From positions 1 through 64,000 of the forward strand of contig NZ_NFLT01000003.1 of the NCBI RefSeq assembly GCF_002161055.1: 64,000 nt of DNA, given 5' to 3'. Under the pieces are notes generated by a model. It saw only the letters and a list, made by a program, of their open reading frames with translations. It searched no databases and had not been told where the DNA came from. The translations under genes and the position numbers were made by a program. Source of the stretch: Tyzzerella sp. An114 (GTDB lineage: Bacteria; Bacillota; Clostridia; Lachnospirales; Anaerotignaceae). The number at the start of each line of letters is the position of its first letter. Within the stretch, counting starts at the first letter, position 1. Shown one piece after another: positions 2,000-33,158 of this stretch.

Positions 2000-4645
2000 A
2001 TGTCGGAAAAAGTTATGCTTATAGATGGCAATAGTATTGCAAACAGGGGTTTTTATGCATTGCCAAATTTAACAAACTCTGAGGGGATTTATACAGGGGC
2101 TATATATGGCTTTTTAAATATAATGTTTAAGTTTATGGACGATGAAAAACCAGATTATATAGGAGTTGCCTTTGACCTTCATGCACCTACTTTCAGACAT
2201 AAAAGGTTTGAAGATTATAAAGGTACTAGAAAGGGTATGCCAGAGGAGCTTCGCCAGCAGATGCCTATTTTAAAGGAGCTTTTGACAAAAATGGGCATAA
2301 AAATTTATGAGTGTGAAGGTTTTGAGGCTGATGATATTTTAGGTACATTGTCTAAAAAAGCTGATGATTGTGGAATAATTCCTGTTGTTGTATCAGGAGA
2401 TAGAGACCTTTTACAGATTGCCGGTAAAAATCTTAAAATTAAAATTCCAAAAACAAAGGGCGGAAAAACAGAGGTTGAGGACTATTACGAAAGTGATGTA
2501 ATAGAGAAATATGGTGTAACACCAACTCAATTTATAGATATGAAAGCTCTTATGGGAGACAGTTCTGACAATATACCGGGAGTTCCTGGTATTGGTGAAA
2601 AAACAGCGGCTAAAATAATAAGAGAGTATGGTGACATTGAAAACGCTATTGCCCATGCTTCTGAAATAAAACCTAAAAAAGCTTCTGAAAATTTGGCAGA
2701 GTTTCAAGAACAAGCTCGTCTCTCGAAGTTTCTTGCTACAATAGTTCGTAATATGGATATTGACCTTGACAAAGATAATATGTCAACAAAAAATATATTT
2801 ACTCCTGAGGCTTATGAAATGTTTAAACGCCTTGAGTTTAAGAGTATGTATAATCGTTTTGAGAGCAGTGAAACAGTTTTAAAAAATGTATGTGATGATT
2901 TTTATAAAGTAATTGAAAATGAAAGTGATATTGAAAAATATGTTTCAAATATTGATAAAAATTTAGAGTATTCATACTTTTTATATAAAGAGGATAATAC
3001 TTTAAAAGCTATATCAGTTTATACAGATAAAAGCTGTGTTGTTGTATATGGTGAAAACAATATTTTAAAATATTTCAATGAATTTTTGACATCAAAGGAA
3101 TTTTGTAAAATAGGAAACAATGTAAAAGAAGATATACGTTTTATGAGAACAAAAAATGTTGAGATAGATGGTATTGTTTTTGATACAGCTTTAGGAGGAT
3201 ACGTTCTCAATCCTACAAGGGAGGAGTATTTATATAATGATATAGCATCAGAGTATCTCAAAACAACATATCCTTCCGAGGAAGAAATTTTTGGAAAAGG
3301 AAAAAAACGTGTTTCTATTGATGAACTTGATAAAGATGTAAAAAATACATTTATGGCTAGAAATGCAAAAACATTTTATGATGGTTCAGATATAATAAGA
3401 GCTGAAATTGAGAGAAACGGACAGCATAAACTTTATTATGATATAGAGCTTCCTTTGATGAGGGTTTTGGCTGATATGGAAAAAGAGGGAATAAAAGTTG
3501 ATAGAAAAGCCCTTGAAGATTATGGAGATATGCTTTCTGAAAAAATAGAGGCTATAACTAAAGAGATATACGATATTGCAGGGGAAGAATTTAATATAAA
3601 TTCACCAAAGCAGTTGGGAGTTATACTTTTTGAGAAAATGGAGCTTAAAGGTGGTAAAAAGACTAAAACAGGATATTCTACTGCTGCCGATATATTAGAA
3701 AAACTTAAAAGTGAAAGTCCTATTGTTGAGAAAATTTTGTATTATAGACAGCTTGCAAAACTTAAAAGCACTTACGTTGATGGTCTTATATCTGTTATTG
3801 ATGATAAAACAGATAAAATATACTCAACATTTAATCAAACTGTGACAGCAACAGGAAGAATAAGCTCAACAGAGCCTAACTTACAAAATATACCTGTTCG
3901 TCTTGACCTTGGTAGAGAGCTTAGAAAAGTTTTTATACCTTCTGATGAAAATAGATGTTTTATAGATGCGGACTATTCACAGATTGAGCTTAGAGTTTTA
4001 GCTCATATTTCAGAGGATGAAACACTTATAAATGCCTTTAAAAACAATCAGGATATACACAGACTTACAGCTTCACAGGTTTTCAATATTCCTTTTGATG
4101 AGGTTACACCTTTACAGAGAAGAAATGCAAAGGCTGTAAATTTTGGTATTGTTTATGGTATAGGTGCTTTCAGTCTCAGTCAGGATTTAGGAATAACAAG
4201 AAAAGAGGCTGAAAATTATATAAATGGATATTTTGAAAAATATCCTAAAATAAAAACATATATAGATAAAACTATAAGAGATGCAGAGGAAAAAGGATAT
4301 GTGTCAACAATATTTGAGAGAAGAAGGGCTATGCCAGAATTACAGTCAGGTAATTTCAATGTGCGTTCTTTTGGTGAAAGAGTAGCTATGAATATGCCTA
4401 TACAGGGAAGTGCTGCCGATATTATAAAAATTGCTATGGTAAAAGTTTATAATGCATTGAAAGAAAGAAATATGAAATCAAAACTAATACTTCAAGTACA
4501 TGACGAACTTTTAATTGATGCATATATTGATGAAATTGATGAAGTTAAAGACATACTTAAAAATGAAATGGAAAACGCTGTGGAACTTAAAACACATCTT
4601 GATATTGATGTACACACAGGCAAAAACTGGTATGAAGCGAAATAA
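2000..4645 (+). CDS. polA: DNA polymerase I
   Basis: An 881-residue family A polymerase for Okazaki fragment processing and repair. Residues 1-300 form the 5'-3' exonuclease (flap nuclease) domain, with the acidic clusters VSGDRD and MGDSSDNIPG and a helix-hairpin-helix GVPGIGEKTA. The middle domain (about 310-480) is the 3'-5' exonuclease fold, but the D-x-E exo I motif is missing, so proofreading is probably absent, as in other Firmicutes PolA. The polymerase domain has motif A (Asp656 and Asp658 in DADYSQIEL), the O helix RRNAKAVNFGIVYG with Lys711, and motif C QVHDE with Asp835. An AGGAGG ribosome site precedes the ATG. It starts a run with coaE and the transglycosylase gene. Confidence 0.96.
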   Translation: MSEKVMLIDGNSIANRGFYALPNLTNSEGIYTGAIYGFLNIMFKFMDDEKPDYIGVAFDLHAPTFRHKRFEDYKGTRKGMPEELRQQMPILKELLTKMGIKIYECEGFEADDILGTLSKKADDCGIIPVVVSGDRDLLQIAGKNLKIKIPKTKGGKTEVEDYYESDVIEKYGVTPTQFIDMKALMGDSSDNIPGVPGIGEKTAAKIIREYGDIENAIAHASEIKPKKASENLAEFQEQARLSKFLATIVRNMDIDLDKDNMSTKNIFTPEAYEMFKRLEFKSMYNRFESSETVLKNVCDDFYKVIENESDIEKYVSNIDKNLEYSYFLYKEDNTLKAISVYTDKSCVVVYGENNILKYFNEFLTSKEFCKIGNNVKEDIRFMRTKNVEIDGIVFDTALGGYVLNPTREEYLYNDIASEYLKTTYPSEEEIFGKGKKRVSIDELDKDVKNTFMARNAKTFYDGSDIIRAEIERNGQHKLYYDIELPLMRVLADMEKEGIKVDRKALEDYGDMLSEKIEAITKEIYDIAGEEFNINSPKQLGVILFEKMELKGGKKTKTGYSTAADILEKLKSESPIVEKILYYRQLAKLKSTYVDGLISVIDDKTDKIYSTFNQTVTATGRISSTEPNLQNIPVRLDLGRELRKVFIPSDENRCFIDADYSQIELRVLAHISEDETLINAFKNNQDIHRLTASQVFNIPFDEVTPLQRRNAKAVNFGIVYGIGAFSLSQDLGITRKEAENYINGYFEKYPKIKTYIDKTIRDAEEKGYVSTIFERRRAMPELQSGNFNVRSFGERVAMNMPIQGSAADIIKIAMVKVYNALKERNMKSKLILQVHDELLIDAYIDEIDEVKDILKNEMENAVELKTHLDIDVHTGKNWYEAK

Positions 4646-4657
4646 AGGGGAATTTTT

Positions 4658-5242
4658 ATGGATATAATAGGACTTACTGGGGGAACAGGAAGTGGAAAAA
4701 GTGTTGTATCTTTGGAGCTTAAAAAGAGAGACTCTTTTATAATAGACTGTGACAAAATAGCCCATGATATAATATTAAAGGGTGAACCTGCCTACAATGA
4801 GATTGTTGAATTTTTTGGAGATAATATTATTGATGAAAATGGTCAGATAATAAGAAAAAAATTAGGTGAAATAGTTTTTTCAGACAGTGAAAAACTTAAA
4901 TTTTTAAATAAGTGTACTCATAAACATATAGGAGATGAGGTTAAAAGACAGATTGAGTTTGCAAAAAATTCAAATGTATATAAAAGAGTTATTATAGACG
5001 CTCCACTTTTAATAGAGGCAGGACTTACAGATATATGCGACAAAATTTGGGTTGTATACTGTGATGAGAGTGTGAGAGCTGATAGAATTGTGGCTCGTGA
5101 CGGTATTTCAAAAGATTTAGCACTTAAAAGAATAGCCTCCCAAAAATCTTGGAGTGAGTATAAAAAATATGCTGATGTTATAATTGACAATAGCAGTGAC
5201 TTAAATTCTGTAATAGAACAGATTGACAAAATTTTAAAATGA
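4658..5242 (+). CDS. coaE: Dephospho-CoA kinase
   Basis: A 194-residue kinase that phosphorylates the ribose 3'-OH of dephospho-CoA, the last step of coenzyme A synthesis. It starts with the P-loop GLTGGTGSGKS (about residues 5-15). The D-x-D-x-I-A-H segment (DCDKIAHDI) after the core helix and the IDAPLLIEAG segment are typical of CoaE. The length is normal. It begins 12 bases after polA, a frequent pairing in Firmicutes, and is followed by the lytic transglycosylase gene 17 bases later, so the three genes are probably co-transcribed. Confidence 0.95.
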   Translation: MDIIGLTGGTGSGKSVVSLELKKRDSFIIDCDKIAHDIILKGEPAYNEIVEFFGDNIIDENGQIIRKKLGEIVFSDSEKLKFLNKCTHKHIGDEVKRQIEFAKNSNVYKRVIIDAPLLIEAGLTDICDKIWVVYCDESVRADRIVARDGISKDLALKRIASQKSWSEYKKYADVIIDNSSDLNSVIEQIDKILK

Positions 5243-9771: not shown

Positions 9772-9801
9772 AAAAAACGGTGGATTTTTCCACCGTTTTT
9801 T
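9772..9801. terminator. Bidirectional intrinsic terminator
   Basis: A perfect 13-bp stem (9772-9784 with 9789-9801) with a TTTT loop. An A run on one side and a T run on the other serve both the rightward ybjQ-like gene and the leftward flippase gene, whose stop codon (9800-9802) overlaps the stem. Confidence 0.88.
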
Positions 9802-11329
9802 ATTTTTTCTTTAATCCTGCAAACTGTAAAATTTCATCTTTTTTAATACAGCCTGTTATTATTAAAAGTATTATATAAAATATACACATTCCACCCATTA
9901 TTGATACAGTTGAAATACTACTGTAAGGTATTTTTATAAATAATAATCTTCCTGTAAGAGCTGAAGCTAATATACATATAAGGGGATAGAATAAACATTT
10001 TATAATATCAATTTTAGTTTCTGTTATTTTTAATACTCTGTGAAGGCTTGTTGTTGATGTCAAAATTAAACTTACTATCCAACCTAATATGAAAGCGTCA
10101 ACACCATACAAAGGCATTCCAAAGTATATAAAAATTATGTTTATTATTGATGATATTACATTGTTTTTAAGTATGTAAATATGTTCCCCCAAACCATTTA
10201 ATAATCCTGAAAGAGTTATATGTAAATATAAAAAAGGACAGACAGGAGATAACTTTAATAAAAGCATATAGAGTTTTTCTTCTTGGTATACTGTCTCACA
10301 TACTTCCTTTGGAAATATGGCAAATATAGCTGTAAAACACAAAGATACAACTATTGTAAAAAATACTGATAAATTCACAGCATCACGAATACGTCTCTTG
10401 TTTTTTATTGCACAAGCCTCTGAAACTGCTGGAACAAGTGTTATTGATACAGCCATTAAAAATGCTGTTGGAAACTGTATTAAAGGCATCATAAGACCTG
10501 TTAAACTGCCGTATATCTCAAGAGGATTTCCCTTTGCACCTGAAAAAAGTCCTAATCTTTGAGGTATAAGTATATTTTCAATAGTTGATAAAAGAGCTCC
10601 AAGACATCTTCCTGATGAAAGAGGTATTGCCATGGATAGTATTGTTGTAAGTGATGTCATAACACCCATTGAAGGTTTTTTAATAAATCCTTTTTTTATT
10701 TTAACTCTCTTATAAAGTAAAAGTACAAATAAAAATGATACAATTTCTCCGGCAACTATACCTATAACAGCGGAAGCACAAGCATAGGAAAGTCCCATAG
10801 GAACAAGTTTTTCAGCTGTAAAAAATACTGCTGTTATTCTTACGGTCTGTTCCAAAATTTGAGAAAAAGCAGGAACAGTTGAGTTTTGTATACCGAAAAA
10901 ATAACCTCTTATACATGAACCGGCAGACATAAAAGGAAAACACAAGGCAAGTATTTTTAATGGAATTATTGTTCTTTGCTCTTTTATTATGTATGTTGCA
11001 AATACATCAGCTGTAAAATACAGAGATATACTTATAATGAGACTTAAAAAAGTACATATTAAAAGAGATTGTTTAAGTATCCTACCCATATTTCCATATT
11101 GATGTTTAGCCTTTTCTTGGGCTGTCAGCTTTGATATTGTAGTTGTAAATCCTGATGATGTTATACTCCAACAAAGAGAATATACAGGCATTATAAGCTG
11201 ATAAAGTCCCATACCCTCAATGCCTATTGTATTGTTCATGTATATTCTGTAAAAAAAGCCTGTAAAACGAGTTATTATATTTGCTAGGGTTAGTATGAAA
11301 GCACCCTTTAAAACAGTGTTTTTGTTCAT
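9800..11329 (-). CDS. MurJ/SpoVB-type polysaccharide or lipid II flippase
   Basis: About 509 residues with some 12-14 hydrophobic helices across the whole length, belonging to the MATE/MurJ (MOP) superfamily. The N-terminus, with TRFTGFFYRIYMNNTIG and GLYQLIMPVY, closely follows the SpoVB/YtgP pattern. These proteins flip undecaprenyl-linked cell-wall or spore-cortex precursors across the membrane. Start choice: an upstream in-frame TTG at 11347 exists, but the ATG at 11329 has a TGAGG ribosome site five bases away, so the ATG is preferred. Whether it serves vegetative wall or cortex synthesis cannot be told. The YdcF gene upstream on the same strand may share its transcript. Confidence 0.88.
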   Translation of the reverse strand: MNKNTVLKGAFILTLANIITRFTGFFYRIYMNNTIGIEGMGLYQLIMPVYSLCWSITSSGFTTTISKLTAQEKAKHQYGNMGRILKQSLLICTFLSLIISISLYFTADVFATYIIKEQRTIIPLKILALCFPFMSAGSCIRGYFFGIQNSTVPAFSQILEQTVRITAVFFTAEKLVPMGLSYACASAVIGIVAGEIVSFLFVLLLYKRVKIKKGFIKKPSMGVMTSLTTILSMAIPLSSGRCLGALLSTIENILIPQRLGLFSGAKGNPLEIYGSLTGLMMPLIQFPTAFLMAVSITLVPAVSEACAIKNKRRIRDAVNLSVFFTIVVSLCFTAIFAIFPKEVCETVYQEEKLYMLLLKLSPVCPFLYLHITLSGLLNGLGEHIYILKNNVISSIINIIFIYFGMPLYGVDAFILGWIVSLILTSTTSLHRVLKITETKIDIIKCLFYPLICILASALTGRLLFIKIPYSSISTVSIMGGMCIFYIILLIITGCIKKDEILQFAGLKKK

Positions 11330-11393
11330 AAAATCCTCACTGTGCAAAAGTTTTTCAATCTATTTTATGGCTTTTTTTATTGGTCTATGTATA

Positions 11394-25823: not shown

Positions 25824-26750
25824 ATGGATATATATAATTTGGCAGTTGAAAAAGAGGATGTTGGCACAAGAATAGATGTCTTTGTGTCTGAAAATTTTGA
25901 TGATATTTCAAGAAGTGGAGTTCAAAAACTTATTGAACAGGGACATATAACTGTAAATGAGAAAAATATAAAATCAAACTATAAACTTAGAGATAAAGAC
26001 ATTATAAAAGTTGAAATTCCGGAACCTGTTGAGATAGAAATACTTCCGGAAGACATTCCTCTTGACATACTTTATGAAGATAATGATGTTATAGTTATAA
26101 ATAAACCACAAGGAATGGTTGTTCATCCTGCACCGGGACATTATTCTGGTACACTTGTCAATGCTTTGATGTATCACTGTAAAGGTGAACTTTCAGGGAT
26201 AAATGGTGTTATGCGTCCTGGAATAGTTCACAGAATTGATAAAGACACATCAGGTGTAATTATGGCAGCTAAAAATAATATGGCTCATCAGTCATTAGCT
26301 TTACAACTTGCAGAACATAGTATAACAAGAAAATACAATGCTATTGTTTTTAATAAACTTAAAGAAGATGAAGGCACAATAGATGCACCTATTGGACGAC
26401 ATCCTGAGGATAGAAAAAAGATGTGTGTTAGGGATAAAAACAGTCGTCATGCTGTAACTCATTATAGAGTTATAGAACATTTGGGGAAATATGACCTTAT
26501 AGAAGCTCAGCTTGAAACAGGGAGAACTCATCAGATAAGAGTTCATATGTCATATATAGGTCATCCTCTTTTAGGTGACGAGGTTTATGGCAAGAGAAAA
26601 CAGCCTTTCTCTACAAAAGGTCAAGTTCTTCATGCCAGAGTTTTGGGATTTGTTCATCCAAGAACTGGGGAGTATATGGAATTTGAGTCAGAACTTCCTG
26701 AATATTTTAAAAAACTTATTGAAAAATTAAAACAGATACAGACAAGCTAA
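25824..26750 (+). CDS. rluD: RluD family pseudouridine synthase
   Basis: A 308-residue enzyme. An N-terminal S4 domain (about 15-75, RSGVQKLIEQGHITVN) is joined to an RluA-type synthase domain with the catalytic Asp in HRIDKDTSGVIMAAK. Other marks are KPQGMVVHPAPGH, ETGRTHQIRVHM and HPLLGDEVYG. It converts uridines in 23S rRNA. It is the ylyB equivalent of the lspA-ylyB-pyr locus of Bacillus. Confidence 0.93.
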   Translation: MDIYNLAVEKEDVGTRIDVFVSENFDDISRSGVQKLIEQGHITVNEKNIKSNYKLRDKDIIKVEIPEPVEIEILPEDIPLDILYEDNDVIVINKPQGMVVHPAPGHYSGTLVNALMYHCKGELSGINGVMRPGIVHRIDKDTSGVIMAAKNNMAHQSLALQLAEHSITRKYNAIVFNKLKEDEGTIDAPIGRHPEDRKKMCVRDKNSRHAVTHYRVIEHLGKYDLIEAQLETGRTHQIRVHMSYIGHPLLGDEVYGKRKQPFSTKGQVLHARVLGFVHPRTGEYMEFESELPEYFKKLIEKLKQIQTS

Positions 26751-26787: not shown

Positions 26788-27711
26788 ATGATTAGAAGAA
26801 AAGATTTTTTTGGTCTCAAAAATATGAGTTCCGATGAAATACGCTATATTCTCAGTACTGCTGAGACAATGAAGTATATATTAAATCATAAAAACAAAAA
26901 AGTTCCCCATTTACAGGGAAAGTCTGTTGTTCTTCTTTTTTATATGGCAAGTGCAAGAGAGAAACTTTCTTATGAAATGGCGGCACAGCACCTCAGTGCA
27001 AATGTTGTTGATATGACAAGAGAGAAATTTGGAAATGAGAAATTAAAAGACATGGGACAGCTTGTTGACCAGATGGGAGCTGATTTTATAATACTTCGTC
27101 ATCCTATGGCTGGAGCTGCTGAATTTTTAGCTGAAGGCGTTCAAGCTTCTGTTATAAATGCTGGTGATGGATATAATGAAAATCCCGGTCAGTCCCTTCT
27201 TGACCTTTTAATTATAAAAGAGAACAAGAGAAGTTTTCAAGGACTTAAAGTTGCCATTGTTGGAGATATTATTCACAGTAGAGTTTCAAGAAGTAATATA
27301 TGGGCTTTGACAAAATTAGGAGCTGATGTTAGAGTTGCAGGACCTCCTACTCTTATGCCTTCTAATTTATCTGATTTTGATGTTAATATATTCTATAATG
27401 CTAAAGAAGCTGTGAAAGATGCTGACGTTATAATAACAACTAAAGTTAGAGTTGAAGACCATGAAAAAAATATAATACCTTCCTTTGAGGAATATAAAAG
27501 TCTTTTCAGAATAGATGAAAACCTTTTAAAATATGCAAAGAAAGATGTTATTATAATGCACCCAGGACCTATTATGAAAGATATTGAAATATCTTCAAAG
27601 GTTATAGACAGTAAACAGTGTATTATAAATGACCATATTGCAAATGGTGTTGCTGTAAGAATGGCTATTCTTTATATATTATCTCAAATTGGAGGTGGCT
27701 TTAATGGTTGA
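26788..27711 (+). CDS. Aspartate carbamoyltransferase-like protein with altered active site
   Basis: A 307-residue protein over the full length of ATCase/PyrB. The fold markers are clear: ILRHPMAGAA, VINAGDG, VGDIIHSRVSRSN and HPGP. However, the carbamoyl-phosphate loop S-T-R-T-R reads S55-A-R-E-K. The 80s-loop Lys is replaced by Gly82 (in FGNEKLKD). The catalytic His of H-P-T-Q is Asn132 (NPGQ, 132-135), and the R-x-Q aspartate site reads K219-V-R221. Arg57 and the RHP Arg-His remain. I infer weak or no ATCase activity. It lies 37 bases after rluD, where Bacillus has the pyr operon, and overlaps the equally altered pyrC-like gene. pyrR and pyrP are missing. Confidence 0.82.
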   Translation: MIRRKDFFGLKNMSSDEIRYILSTAETMKYILNHKNKKVPHLQGKSVVLLFYMASAREKLSYEMAAQHLSANVVDMTREKFGNEKLKDMGQLVDQMGADFIILRHPMAGAAEFLAEGVQASVINAGDGYNENPGQSLLDLLIIKENKRSFQGLKVAIVGDIIHSRVSRSNIWALTKLGADVRVAGPPTLMPSNLSDFDVNIFYNAKEAVKDADVIITTKVRVEDHEKNIIPSFEEYKSLFRIDENLLKYAKKDVIIMHPGPIMKDIEISSKVIDSKQCIINDHIANGVAVRMAILYILSQIGGGFNG

Positions 27712-28972
27712 TATACTCAAAAATCTCCATATTGTTTCTCATAAATATGATATTAATAAAATTTATGATATTAAAATTGAAAATGGATACATAAAAGAAA
27801 TTGGTGAAAACTTAGATGATACAAATTGTTATATAACAGATTGTACAGGACTTTTTGCTCTTCCCGGATTTATTGATATGCATTGTAGGATAGGAGACCC
27901 AGGTTTTGAGCATATTGAGGATATTGAAACAGCCTCAATGAGCGGTTCTAGAGGTGGTTTTACATCTTTAACTTGTGAACCTTCAACTAAGCCTGCCATT
28001 GATAATAAAGCCGTTGTTGACTATGTTATATCAAAAAGCGGTATATATTCACTTGTAAATATATTACCCTATGGAAGTATGACAATAGGCTGTGAGGGAA
28101 AAGAAATGGCAGAGATAGGTGAAATGTATAAAATGGGTATAGTTGCTCTCTCTGATGGCGATAAGTCTATTACAGATACTGGACTTTTGAGAAATATATT
28201 TAAGTATTCAAAAATGTTTAATCTGCCTGTAATAACAAGTTGTGATGACACATCAATATCAAATAACGGTGTTATGAATGAAGGATTTATGTCAACAGCA
28301 TTGGGGCTTAGAGGTATACCTAAAGAGGCGGAAGAAGTTTTTGTGGCAAGAGATATTGTTTTAGCTGAAAGAGTTGGAAATCATCTTCATATTTCAACTG
28401 TAACAACAGAAGGTTCTGTTCAGCTTATAAGAGAGGCTAAGGCTAGAGGTGTAAATGTTACATGCGAGACAAGCCCTCATTATTTCACATTTACAGAGGA
28501 TAAAGTTTCAGGATATAATACTCTTGCAAAGGTCAAACCACCTTTGAGAACAGAAAAAGACAGACTTGCTGTTATAGAAGGTCTTAAAGATGGCACAATA
28601 GATGTTATATCATCATCACATACTCCTGCCAATCCTGATTGGAAATATGAGGTTTTTGACTCGGCTGACTGGGGTATTTCAAGTCTTGAAACTGCTTTCC
28701 CTGTAAGTTATACAAAACTTGTTGAAAAAGGTGAACTTACACTTTTACAGCTTGTAGAGAAAATGTCTCTAAATCCTTCTAAAATATTAGGACTTAAAAA
28801 AGGCGTAATTGATGTGGGAGTTGAAGCTGATATTACTATTGTTGACACAAAAAATGAGTATACTGTGAAATCTTCTGATTTTTTATCAAAAGCAAAATTT
28901 TCACTTTATGAGGATATGAAACTTAAGGGTAAAGTTGTTTATACTATTGTTCATGGAAGAATAATATATTGA
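27704..28972 (+). CDS. Dihydroorotase-like protein lacking metal ligands (probable pseudoenzyme)
   Basis: About 422 residues with the amidohydrolase fold of DHOase/PyrC. Active-site differences are extensive. The metal H-x-H is H60-C-R62. The M-P-N-T substrate loop is E-P-S-T. The H-x-E-D metal His is Ser179 (SCDD). The next metal His is Thr232 (HISTVTT). The catalytic Asp of T-D-H-A-P-H is Ser305 (SSSHTPAN). Fold segments such as LFALPGFIDMHC, VMNEGFMSTALGLRGIP and SLNPSKILGLKKG are well kept, so the protein is under selection. Pseudomonas uses an inactive PyrC' to assemble ATCase; a similar structural role is possible. Start: ATG 27704, six bases after GGAGGTG, overlapping the pyrB-like gene by eight bases. 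Confidence 0.82.
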   Translation: MVDILKNLHIVSHKYDINKIYDIKIENGYIKEIGENLDDTNCYITDCTGLFALPGFIDMHCRIGDPGFEHIEDIETASMSGSRGGFTSLTCEPSTKPAIDNKAVVDYVISKSGIYSLVNILPYGSMTIGCEGKEMAEIGEMYKMGIVALSDGDKSITDTGLLRNIFKYSKMFNLPVITSCDDTSISNNGVMNEGFMSTALGLRGIPKEAEEVFVARDIVLAERVGNHLHISTVTTEGSVQLIREAKARGVNVTCETSPHYFTFTEDKVSGYNTLAKVKPPLRTEKDRLAVIEGLKDGTIDVISSSHTPANPDWKYEVFDSADWGISSLETAFPVSYTKLVEKGELTLLQLVEKMSLNPSKILGLKKGVIDVGVEADITIVDTKNEYTVKSSDFLSKAKFSLYEDMKLKGKVVYTIVHGRIIY

Positions 28973-29436: not shown

Positions 29437-29467
29437 AAAAGACAGTGATTTTTTCACTGTCTTTTTT
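29437..29467 (+). terminator. Intrinsic terminator after the aroB-to-pyrC-like run
   Basis: A perfect 12-bp stem (29437-29448 with 29454-29465) with a five-T loop, followed by further T's. Confidence 0.85.
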
Positions 29468-29582: not shown

Positions 29583-32500
29583 ATGTATTTAAAAAGACTT
29601 GATTTGCAAGGCTTCAAATCCTTTCCTGAAAAGGTGAAGCTTGATTTTAATAAAGGAATAACAGCCGTTGTAGGACCTAATGGCAGTGGTAAAAGTAATA
29701 TATCTGACTCTGTAAGGTGGGTTTTGGGAGAACAGAAGGCAAAAACTCTCCGTGGTGATAAAATGGAGGATATTATATTTGCTGGTACAGAGAGCAGAAA
29801 AGCTTTAGGATTTGCAGAGGTTTCTATAACAATAGATAATAAAGAGGGCAAAATGCCCATTGAATATACAGAGGTAACTGTCACAAGGCGTGTATATCGT
29901 TCTGGTGAAAGTGAATATTTGATAAATGGCACAAATTGCCGTCTTAAAGATATCCATGAACTTTTTATGGACACAGGAATAGGACGTGAAGGCTATTCTA
30001 TAATTGGACAGGGTAAAATTGATGAGATATTAAGCTCAAAGTCTGATGACAGAAGAAGACTTTTTGAGGAGGCTGCCGGTATTGTTAAGTTTAAAAATCG
30101 CCGTCAGGAGACATTTTTAAAACTTGAAAAAGAACAACAAAACCTTGAGCGTGCCGAGGATATTATAAATGAACTTGAAAGTCAGATTGAACCTTTAAAA
30201 AATCAGTCTGAAACTGCTAAAAAATATATCAGTCTCAAAGAAAAACTTAAGTATTGTGATATAAATATATTTAAGTTTGAGAGAGAAAGAATTGACAGTG
30301 AGATAAAGGACATAGGCGAAAAACTGGAAATTTATAATCAGTCTGTATTGGAGAAAGAAAAAGAGGGAGAAAGTATACGTGATAATATTCACAGTCTCAA
30401 AAAACTTTCTGATGAATATACAGATGATATTCAGAATATAAATGATAATATTGCTGAAAAAAGAAGCTCTCTTGAAAAACTTGAAAGTAGTATAAAAATT
30501 GTTGAAGAACAGATTGCTCATTCAAAGTCTAATATTGAAAGGGCAAAGTCTGATAAGGCAAAGGCTTATGAGGCAATAGAGAAAAACAAAGAGAGTATTG
30601 ATATTGAAAAGTCTAAAATAACAGCCTCAGAAATAAGCCTTAAAGCTCATAATGATAAACTTTCTGTACTTGAAGAAAAATTTTCAAATTTAAGTAATGC
30701 TCTCACTGAAAATGAAAGTATCATTGACGAATATAAAACTGAGATGATAGAAAAAATAAAAACAAGTACAGAGCTTAAAGGTGATATATCAAAGGCTGAA
30801 AGCATGGAAAGTCAGTATAAGAGACGTAAAGAACAGCTTGAAAATGAGAAGGCTTATATTGAAAGTCAAATAAGAGACAGTGAAATCCATATTGAAGCCC
30901 TTAAAAAACATATTGAAGTTAACGGAGAAAAACAACAAAAACTTGAAAAAGAGATATCAAACTCCGATTTTGAGAGAAAAAATATATTGAATAATAACGA
31001 TATTATGAGGGCTATTCTCCAAACTAAAGAGAGAGAATATAACGATAAAAAATCTCGTCTCAATGTTCTTTCTGATATGGAAAAAGAACATGAGGGATTT
31101 TTTAAGAGTGTAAAGAGTATATTAAAATTAAGTTCTCAAGGTGATAGAAGATTTAAAGGTGTTATGGGAGCTGTGGGTGAGATATTCACAGTTGATAAAA
31201 AATATGAGACTGCCATAGAAATTGCTTTAGGCGGTGCTATGCAAAATATTGTAACTGATAATGAAGATAGTGCTAAAAGTGCTATTGAATATTTAAAACA
31301 TAATAATCTTGGTAGAGCTACATTTCTTCCTATATCTGCTGTAAAGGGTAAAGGAATAGAAAAAGACAGAGATAAAATACTTTCTGAAAAAGGTATAATT
31401 GGAACAGCGGACACTATTGTTAATTATGAAAATGTTTATGACGGTATAGCTAAATTTCTTTTGGGAAAAGTTATTATTGCTGAAAATATTGATTTTGCCA
31501 TTGAATTTTCTAAAAAATATAAATATTCTTATAAAATTGTAACCCTTGATGGAGATACTTTAAGCGTTGGTGGAGCCATGACCGGCGGTAGTATTTCAAA
31601 AAAATCAACTGGAATATTTGGAAGAAGTAGAGAAATAAAAGAGCTTAAAGATTATATTGAAGTTTTTGGAAAAGAAGTTGATGAAATAAGAAATAAAATT
31701 TCTGAGGGACAGAAAAAAATTGATAAAATAGCTGAAAAAGTATCTGAAATGAATATGGCTTTAAGAGAGATAAGCCTTAAAAATGAAAATGCAAAAAATG
31801 ATATATCAAGAACAGAAAATTCTCTTAAAGATAAAAATGAAAAACTTAATCTTTATATTATAGAGGAAAAACAGCTTAAAGAACAATCAGACTTTGCAAA
31901 CACAGACCTTGAAAAGGCTAAGGAAAAACTCTTAAATACTGAAAAAGATATTGAGAGAATAAACGAAGTCTTATCTAAATATCAGACAGACATTGAAAGC
32001 GAGAGAGTTTCACAAAATCAGCTTTTAAATGAGATTACAGAAATAAAAATAACAGTTTCTAATATAAAACAGAGTCGAAAAAATTCTGATAATACAATAA
32101 AAAGAATAAATGACACTATAAAGGAACTTGAAAAAGATATTGAAAACTTTGACAAAGACAAAGAAAAACTCAAAAAAGATATAGAAAACAAAAAAGAAGA
32201 TATATCAAAAACAGAAGTTCAAATATTGGAAGTTAAAAGAAATATTGATGAACTTCAAAAAAATCTCACAGAAAAAGCCGATATGAGAAAAGATACTATT
32301 GAAAAATATGAAGGCTTGGAAGAAAAAATAAGAGAATGTTCCGATTACATAGCTAAACTTAAAAATGACAGTGTACGTATTGAGGCTAGAAGGGATAAAC
32401 TTTTTGAGGACAAAGAAAGAATTGCAAATAATATAATTGAGGAGTATGATATAAACCCTGAAACTATTGAAAATACCCTTGATAATTTGCCTTCCGTTGA

Positions 32501-33158
32501 CAGTCTCAAAAAATCTGCCTATAATCTTAAGGGGGAAATAAAAGCCCTTGGAAGTGTCAATGTTGATGCAATAGAGAAATATAGAGAGGTAAAGGAGAGA
32601 TATACTTTCCTTTGTAGTCAGAGAGACGATATTGTGGAGGCTGAAAGAAAACTTAAGGGTATTATTTCAGAGCTTACTACACTTATGGAAAATCAGTTTA
32701 AAGAACAGTTTGAAATCATATCAAATAACTTTAACGAGACATTCAGAGAAATGTTTGGTGGTGGAAAGGCTTATTTGAGACTTTCTGATGAAAATGACGT
32801 TTTAGGTTCGGGAATAGATATTATTGCACAGCCACCGGGAAAAAATCTTCAAAATATGATGCTTTTATCTGGTGGAGAGCGTGCTTTAACTGCTATATCA
32901 ATACTTTTTTCAATACTTAAAATGAAACCGTCACCTTTCTGTATACTTGATGAGATTGAAGCTGCCCTTGATGATGCTAATGTAAAACGTTATGCCGATT
33001 ATTTGAGAAAGTTCTCAAAGGAAACACAGTTTATAGTTATAACTCACAGAAAAGGCACTATGGAAGCGGCTGATGTTATGTATGGCATAACAATGCAGGA
33101 GAAAGGCGTTTCAAAACTTATATCGGTTGATTTTACCGATACTATGGATTATTCATAA
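29583..33158 (+). CDS. smc: Chromosome partition protein SMC
   Basis: A 1191-residue condensin ATPase. The N-terminal head has Walker A GPNGSGKSNI (about 32-41) and the RWVLGEQ segment. Two long coiled coils (about 165-500 and 680-1020) flank a hinge (about 510-670, GVMGAVGEIF to GGAMTGGS). The C-terminal head has the signature LLSGGERALTAIS, Walker B FCILDEIEAALDD and the THRKGTMEAAD switch. With ScpA/ScpB it extrudes DNA loops from parS sites. It is followed 17 bases later by ftsY, as in Bacillus. Confidence 0.96.
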   Translation: MYLKRLDLQGFKSFPEKVKLDFNKGITAVVGPNGSGKSNISDSVRWVLGEQKAKTLRGDKMEDIIFAGTESRKALGFAEVSITIDNKEGKMPIEYTEVTVTRRVYRSGESEYLINGTNCRLKDIHELFMDTGIGREGYSIIGQGKIDEILSSKSDDRRRLFEEAAGIVKFKNRRQETFLKLEKEQQNLERAEDIINELESQIEPLKNQSETAKKYISLKEKLKYCDINIFKFERERIDSEIKDIGEKLEIYNQSVLEKEKEGESIRDNIHSLKKLSDEYTDDIQNINDNIAEKRSSLEKLESSIKIVEEQIAHSKSNIERAKSDKAKAYEAIEKNKESIDIEKSKITASEISLKAHNDKLSVLEEKFSNLSNALTENESIIDEYKTEMIEKIKTSTELKGDISKAESMESQYKRRKEQLENEKAYIESQIRDSEIHIEALKKHIEVNGEKQQKLEKEISNSDFERKNILNNNDIMRAILQTKEREYNDKKSRLNVLSDMEKEHEGFFKSVKSILKLSSQGDRRFKGVMGAVGEIFTVDKKYETAIEIALGGAMQNIVTDNEDSAKSAIEYLKHNNLGRATFLPISAVKGKGIEKDRDKILSEKGIIGTADTIVNYENVYDGIAKFLLGKVIIAENIDFAIEFSKKYKYSYKIVTLDGDTLSVGGAMTGGSISKKSTGIFGRSREIKELKDYIEVFGKEVDEIRNKISEGQKKIDKIAEKVSEMNMALREISLKNENAKNDISRTENSLKDKNEKLNLYIIEEKQLKEQSDFANTDLEKAKEKLLNTEKDIERINEVLSKYQTDIESERVSQNQLLNEITEIKITVSNIKQSRKNSDNTIKRINDTIKELEKDIENFDKDKEKLKKDIENKKEDISKTEVQILEVKRNIDELQKNLTEKADMRKDTIEKYEGLEEKIRECSDYIAKLKNDSVRIEARRDKLFEDKERIANNIIEEYDINPETIENTLDNLPSVDSLKKSAYNLKGEIKALGSVNVDAIEKYREVKERYTFLCSQRDDIVEAERKLKGIISELTTLMENQFKEQFEIISNNFNETFREMFGGGKAYLRLSDENDVLGSGIDIIAQPPGKNLQNMMLLSGGERALTAISILFSILKMKPSPFCILDEIEAALDDANVKRYADYLRKFSKETQFIVITHRKGTMEAADVMYGITMQEKGVSKLISVDFTDTMDYS

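Follow-up and report, generated by a model that had tools for sequence, protein, structure and literature searches.

A conserved pair of aspartate carbamoyltransferase and dihydroorotase homologues stripped of catalytic residues in the Lachnospirales

Class A2 aspartate carbamoyltransferases (ATCases) are dodecamers of six ATCase and six dihydroorotase (DHOase)-like chains, and unfused PyrB-like and PyrC-like chains also form a pair in the ATCase-DHOase of Aquifex aeolicus (PDB 3d6n, 4bjh). According to the available excerpts of PMC4581275, the motifs SxRT and HPxQ characterise all known transcarbamylases; the excerpts of PMC3880350 give His61, His63 and Asp153 as the zinc ligands of the Aquifex DHOase, with Asp305 next closest. 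Here we analyse a linked pair of pyrB- and pyrC-like genes in a 64,000-nucleotide stretch of Tyzzerella sp. An114 (contig NZ_NFLT01000003.1, positions 1 to 64,000 of the forward strand; hereafter the window), whose products we call PyrB* and PyrC*. Judged from sequence, the pair is very probably dead both as ATCase and as DHOase, and retained under selection.

PyrB* (26788..27711, + strand) is a full-length ATCase homologue of 307 amino acids, and PyrC* (27704..28972, + strand) a full-length type-I DHOase homologue of 422 amino acids counted from the ATG at 27704. The earliest possible start of PyrC* is a TTG at 27689; the ATG used for numbering has, by eye, a good ribosome-binding site (GGAGGTGG) and yields an overlap of exactly 8 bases with PyrB*. 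Translation bore out the initial annotation of this locus, which had described two full-length frames overlapping by 8 bases, and also the residues that it had listed: S-A-R-E-K, a Gly at the Lys84 position, N-P-G-Q and K-V-R in PyrB*, with RHP, GDIIHSR and HPGP retained, and H-C-R, Ser179, Thr232 and Ser305 in PyrC*. ATCase residues are given here in what we take to be E. coli numbering, anchored on the motifs. Aligned to intact relatives, the window PyrB* lacks Thr53, Thr55, Ser80 (deleted), Lys84, His134 and Gln231; it retains Ser52, Arg54, Arg105, Gln137 and Arg167, and Lys replaces Arg229.

Compared with the Aquifex DHOase (Aquifex numbering), PyrC* carries the replacements His63 to Arg, Asp153 to Gly, His180 to Ser, His232 to Thr and Asp305 to Ser, and its alpha-zinc positions 61, 63 and 153 read H, R and G. 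The loss of Asp153, the third alpha-zinc ligand (SDGD for SDDG), is an addition to the initial annotation. His180 and His232 are dispensable in the Aquifex enzyme, as stated in the excerpted text of PMC3880350, so inactivity could not be concluded from the loss of just those two. Each protein scores above curated NCBI profile cut-offs: PyrB* matches TIGR00670 with 246.5 bits (cut-off 236.95) and PRK00856 with 307.8 (263), and PyrC* matches TIGR00857 with 349.4 (279.05). Automatic annotation would therefore probably call both active enzymes, a trap that can mislead metabolic models.

PyrB* was found in all three genomes of the window's genus and in 37 of 58 genomes of its family, Anaerotignaceae (E <= 1e-90), representing nine of 17 genera. 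Thirty-four loci came from a scan of named genomes, whose titles include Anaerotignum lactatifermentans DSM 14214, A. neopropionicum DSM 3847, Candidatus Fimicola and Clostridium sp. MD294 strain ASF356; the NCBI taxonomy has Anaerotignum under Anaerotignaceae, Lachnospirales. Across the order, 98 of 295 genomes matched at E <= 1e-88, 32 inside the family and 66 outside it. Five of the latter belong to one family (f24), and the three of these that were fetched are intact ATCases (L154, L252, L253). The other 61 were all fetched and all proved stripped. Together with 35 of the 37 family matches (G015 and G018, which are partial, were left out), they make up a set of 96 stripped loci spanning nine families of Lachnospirales; the duplicate stretches L254 and L255 (from G179 and G043) and the intact loci L252 and L253 are excluded from these counts. 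In a draw of 391 genomes from the class outside the order, 44 matched at E <= 1e-92, and all 26 loci inspected have an intact PyrB and an intact PyrC.

The key losses recur across the order and are thus not chance decay. His134 of the H-P-x-Q motif is missing from all 96 PyrB* loci, replaced by Asn in 84 and Asp in 12, and is present in 49 of 49 intact rows. Among the 84 loci in the alignment used for the PyrB tree, Ser80 is never kept and Lys84 is kept in 10, neither being present in the window, and Thr55 of the S-x-R-T motif (SARE in the window) is lost in 79 and kept in five. The pocket arginines persist over the same 84 loci: Arg54 in 83, Arg105 in 83, Arg167 in all, and Arg or Lys at 229 in 81. 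Retention of the arginines with the catalytic positions gone is the pattern expected if PyrB* still binds a ligand. In PyrC*, Asp153 is lost in 93 of 93 loci, His63 in 92 of 93 (L135, from f7, is the sole row with it) and Asp305 in 71 of the 91 loci that have a residue aligned at that position. Asp305 is retained in 19 of 79 rows of the PyrC tree, all from the least stripped families (f4, f21 and f22). Position 63 varies among Lys, Asn, Glu, Asp, Arg, Ser, Thr and others, and position 61 among His, Asn, Ser, Gly, Tyr and others.

We estimated the ratio of nonsynonymous to synonymous substitution (dN/dS) for 24 close pairs with our own script for the Nei-Gojobori method; dS is above 1 in some cases, and those dS values are rough. 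The ratio was 0.00-0.10 for PyrB* and 0.00-0.18 for PyrC*, strong purifying selection rather than the relaxed selection with frameshifts that the initial annotation had named as evidence against retention. Within the window's genus the values were 0.07-0.08 for PyrB*, 0.16-0.18 for PyrC*, 0.12-0.14 for smc and 0.20 for aroB; between the window and its nearest relative they were 0.14 for smc, 0.15 for ftsY, 0.20 for aroB, 0.03 for rluD, 0.03 for the intact pyrB and 0.07 for the intact pyrC. PyrB* is thus held more tightly at genus level than smc and aroB, and more loosely than rluD and the intact pyrB. No locus of the 96 has a PyrB open reading frame shorter than 290 amino acids, and a PyrC frame shorter than 400 amino acids occurs in four of 93: two at contig ends, one interrupted by a group II intron (L210) and one split in a poor assembly (L027). 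Ratios of 0.00-0.18, with nearly all frames open, rule out pseudogene decay. A few irregular sequences were seen. In L027 (G006) PyrC* is split; in L053, which is similar to L027, PyrC*, smc and ylmH all appear split; and the second PyrB of G006 carries an internal stop. Together they look like errors of sequencing, not like a pair in decay.

The two genes travel together, as the initial annotation had supposed. PyrC* lies directly behind PyrB* in 93 of 96 loci, and the remaining three PyrB* genes stand at contig ends. Presence and absence in the family are joint: of the 37 genomes with PyrB*, only G027 shows no PyrC*, and its contig ends there; of the 21 without PyrB*, 20 also lack PyrC*, and G013 has a PyrC* cut by a contig end. 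The next gene upstream is rluD in 68 of the 96 loci, including the window (rluD/ylyB homologue, 25824..26750, + strand, named by eye), where it represents a conserved flank of the ancestral pyr locus.

Genuine PyrB and PyrC had been predicted to lie elsewhere in the genome, and canonical copies are indeed present. A pyrB-pyrC-pyrF-pyrK-pyrD-pyrE run begins at about 201.8 kb on the same contig (G000:C23), ~175 kb from the pair; pyrD and pyrE are also matched by family profiles, and pyrF and pyrK were named by eye. The PyrB and PyrC of this run keep all catalytic motifs and are 49% and 43% identical to PyrB* and PyrC*, respectively. These intact copies rule out PyrB* and PyrC* as the only ATCase and DHOase of the genome. 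Of the 37 family genomes with PyrB*, 35 have a second PyrB that passes the family cut-off or is near-complete, and one was found in 24 of 27 PyrB* genomes searched from other families. Where a second PyrB was read as a locus, its motifs are intact (the frame cut for L165 does not include the first of them), and the second PyrC has intact catalytic motifs in all 20 genomes checked whose ATCase is of the E. coli type. Only a stripped PyrB was seen in five searched genomes (G043, G034, G179, G081, whose second match is OTC-like, and G089). Since G043, G179 and G081 have pyrD and G034 has pyrE, incomplete assembly is the likely reason in those four; G089 alone lacks pyrD and pyrE as well. As a separate observation, the family genome G050 has two PyrB genes of E. 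coli type by score (G050:C62:977-1876 and G050:C60:10739-11638); its assembly shows 4% contamination, and one of the two may be foreign.

In a PyrB tree of 139 rows, the stripped sequences (85 rows for 84 loci, the window protein having been entered twice) form one clade with a Shimodaira-Hasegawa-like approximate likelihood ratio (SH-aLRT) support of 100, and in a PyrC tree of 128 rows so do the 79 stripped rows, again with 100. Intact copies from the order group separately, with support of 74 (PyrB) and 99 (PyrC). Both trees are quick searches without bootstrap; the PyrB tree omits 12 near-duplicate family loci, and the PyrC tree omits five further loci without a full PyrC* (L138, L210, L235, L237, L245). 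With one stripped clade for each protein, a single loss of catalysis is probable. A recent local duplication of the operon is ruled out by the separation of the stripped clade from the intact copies of the order.

Outside the order, rluD lies within the fetched stretch in nine of the 26 intact loci, and the 20 loci fetched with long flanks all have pyrF after pyrC (one of them with a small intervening frame); the remaining six stretches are too short to show pyrF. From these comparisons the pair is most simply read as a stripped descendant of the intact clostridial rluD-pyrR-(pyrP)-pyrB-pyrC-pyrF locus. Several loci of families f21 and f22 show the order rluD-pyrR-permease-PyrB*-PyrC*, some of them with an additional gene ahead of PyrB*, and in the two tested (L147, L153) NCBIfam confirmed PyrR and an NCS2 (uracil-permease-like) transporter. 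Sub-threshold PyrR RNA elements (38-49 bits, E 0.001-0.13) occur in four of six stripped f21/f22 loci: directly before pyrR in L153, and ~2-3 kb upstream of PyrB* on the same strand in L211, L216 and L219. This gene order and these elements suggest that the pair there is probably still part of a pyrimidine regulon. At the Rfam gathering score, no PyrR element was found in five loci of the window's family (the window, L059, L066, L071 and L073), nor in the intact operon of the window's genome. A search for the empty site in G023, a single-contig genome lacking the pair, found neither rluD nor smc within the 380 kb fetched.

AlphaFold models of the two proteins resemble ATCases and type-I DHOases, and the two Aquifex chains rank high among the Foldseek matches: the best match of PyrB* is 3d6n_B, and PyrC* matches 4yiw and 3d6n_A with template modelling (TM) scores of 0.89-0.90. 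We propose, with a probability of roughly 0.4, that PyrB* and PyrC* form a sensor or regulatory complex resembling the Aquifex ATCase-DHOase complex, or a scaffold. In this proposal the pair would descend vertically from an ancestral clostridial pyrB-pyrC (rluD-pyrR-pyrP-pyrB-pyrC) and would have lost catalysis once, in the ancestor of a large part of the order, where other ATCase and DHOase genes did the chemistry. PyrB* and PyrC* would assemble in the Aquifex manner, with three dimers linking two trimers. The PyrB* pocket, with Arg54, Arg105, Arg167 and usually Arg or Lys at 229 but no His134 and no Ser80/Lys84 loop, may bind an anionic ligand of the pyrimidine pathway (carbamoyl phosphate, aspartate, UMP or similar) without turnover, and the complex would act as a metabolite-responsive regulator or scaffold. 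The narrower version, that a dead two-enzyme complex was converted once to a sensor of carbamoyl phosphate, aspartate or a pyrimidine nucleotide through this arginine cage, is tentative.

Several observations weigh against this proposal. The pair is missing from eight of the 17 family genera, so it is dispensable over evolutionary time. At genus level PyrC* is no more constrained than its neighbours, and its pocket decays much more freely than that of PyrB*, a pattern compatible with a scaffold as much as with a sensor. Over the 65 loci with all four genes used for a mirror-tree comparison, the partial correlation between PyrB* and PyrC* (r 0.60-0.63) was slightly above that of the controls (0.24-0.57). 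The set of kept residues was picked after seeing the alignment, which makes the permutation value of 0.0005 descriptive only, and the models have middling confidence (mean predicted local distance difference test score, pLDDT, 73 for PyrB* and 70 for PyrC*). No PyrR RNA element passed the Rfam gathering score in any of 12 stripped loci from other families (10 scanned together, plus L152 and L153), compared with three of three intact control loci. Lastly, G089 (1.5 Mb, 93% complete) is a predicted pyrimidine auxotroph that still carries the pair, which speaks against the pair being indispensable for de novo synthesis, on the evidence of one incomplete genome. Searches of G089 gave no other PyrB at E <= 1e-40, no PyrE above 36 bits and no class-1 PyrD at E <= 1e-20. 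Its PyrB* has lost more pocket residues, and its PyrC* contains an intron-like stretch without a long frame (L210, G089:C19, ~4205-4958) that matches group II introns in Rfam (RF02004, 139.8 bits; RF00029, 63.2 bits). By eye, the flanking frames fit precise splicing; the contig stops before the end of PyrC*.

As an alternative, the dead pair, or PyrC* by itself, might stabilise or regulate an intact ATCase or DHOase in the manner of the Pseudomonas pseudo-dihydroorotase PyrC', an explanation that we regard as somewhat doubtful. It would account for the conserved fold and the constraint on the pair, and it has a precedent in P. aeruginosa ATCase, which is inactive without its pseudo-DHOase according to the excerpts of PMC7053772. 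If the pair served one ATCase, its distribution would be expected to follow that enzyme; the pair, however, stands beside two unrelated kinds. With the kind assigned by motif, or by score where no locus was read, three genera with the pair have a Bacillus-like and six an E. coli-type intact PyrB (PyrI confirmed in two of two loci tested), and the corresponding numbers for genera lacking the pair are five and three. Both kinds occur with and without the pair, so its presence does not track the kind of ATCase. The intact PyrC in 20 of 20 E. coli-type genomes means that PyrC rather than PyrB could be the partner, and persistence of the pair in the predicted auxotroph G089 speaks against this explanation.

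It is unlikely that the two proteins now catalyse a different reaction, on some related carbamoyl or ureido compound. The PyrB* pocket is strongly conserved, the switch of His134 to Asn or Asp is uniform, as might be needed for a new function, and transcarbamylases with other substrates exist (PMC4581275, in the parts available). The same parts give HPxQ as common to all known transcarbamylases, however, and PyrB* never has the His; the metal-site positions of PyrC* vary freely, unlike those of a new metal site.

Still less probable is a moonlighting role in cell division or chromosome maintenance, suggested by the position of the pair, in this family, inside a sepF-divIVA-lspA-rluD-smc-ftsY cluster. 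The 34 named loci all retain the order rluD-PyrB*-PyrC*-smc, as far as each stretch reaches, with a PyrC*-smc gap of -22 to 78 bases in 10 loci checked from other genera, and CRMP proteins, which are dihydropyrimidinase-like cytoskeleton regulators, appear among the structural matches. The place next to rluD is nevertheless inherited from the ancestral pyr locus, since intact pyrBC occupies it in nine of the 26 loci outside the order, and in the 61 loci of other families no smc was seen behind the pair over the length that the stretches cover. That the genes are functionless relics in slow decay is highly improbable, given dN/dS far below 1, frames nearly all open and a single clade retained across nine families, even though families differ by degrees in how many residues they have lost (more in the window's genus than in its sisters), several genera lack the pair and one PyrC* carries an intron.

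Downstream of PyrC* in the window, P3 (28989..29432, + strand) encodes 147 amino acids with one N-terminal membrane segment by eye and matches no known family. It is absent between PyrC* and smc in 10 of 10 other Anaerotignaceae loci checked, is known only from the window's genus, is under weaker constraint (dN/dS 0.22-0.34) and lies outside the conserved unit. A terminator-like palindrome (29437..29465), a pattern match only, follows between P3 and smc; its listing is for the - strand, and on the + strand the stem likewise has a run of T behind it, as judged by eye. The next conserved downstream gene in the family is smc (29583..33158, + strand, named by eye). An Rfam scan of the window gave no match. 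Elsewhere in the genome, L009 (G000:C34:80000-95000) holds tandem genes resembling type-III pantothenate kinases (9796-10590 and 10606-11376, named by eye), the first reading DYSTATTFD and the second DYGTANTFD; one copy may also be altered.

We found no description of such a dead ATCase-DHOase pair in searches of open-licence papers, which does not prove that none is in print. Pseudo-dihydroorotases are already known; a matched pair with a dead ATCase partner across an order may be new. If the narrower sensor reading is correct, it would be, to our knowledge, the first ATCase catalytic fold recruited as a non-enzyme. The system offers a natural experiment: each protein has a single stripped clade with graded intermediates, the intact ATCases alongside are of two unrelated kinds, and there are cultured strains and complete genomes.

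Among described systems, the Aquifex chains are among the closest solved relatives of PyrB* and PyrC* by sequence and fold; that complex is an active enzyme, whereas PyrB* and PyrC* lack the catalytic residues, and their joint assembly is a proposal. The Pseudomonas class A2 ATCase likewise has a pseudo-dihydroorotase encoded with an ATCase-like chain, but its PyrB is active (PMC7053772, in the text available), whereas here PyrB* is stripped and an intact ATCase lies elsewhere. The fungal CAD-like Ura2 also places an inactive DHOase fold next to an ATCase fold (excerpts of PMC4581275 and PMC7053772), in a fused protein whose ATCase domain is active. OTCase, PTCase, YTCase and UGTCase share with PyrB* the fold and the histidine-proline loop (HPGP in PyrB*); they carry SxRT and HPxQ, as far as the excerpts of PMC4581275 describe them, and the window PyrB* has neither. 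The intact clostridial rluD-pyrR-(pyrP)-pyrB-pyrC-pyrF locus differs in its intact catalytic residues and in the pyrF that follows in all 20 loci reaching that far, and agrees in position and homology, which makes it the likely parent of the pair.

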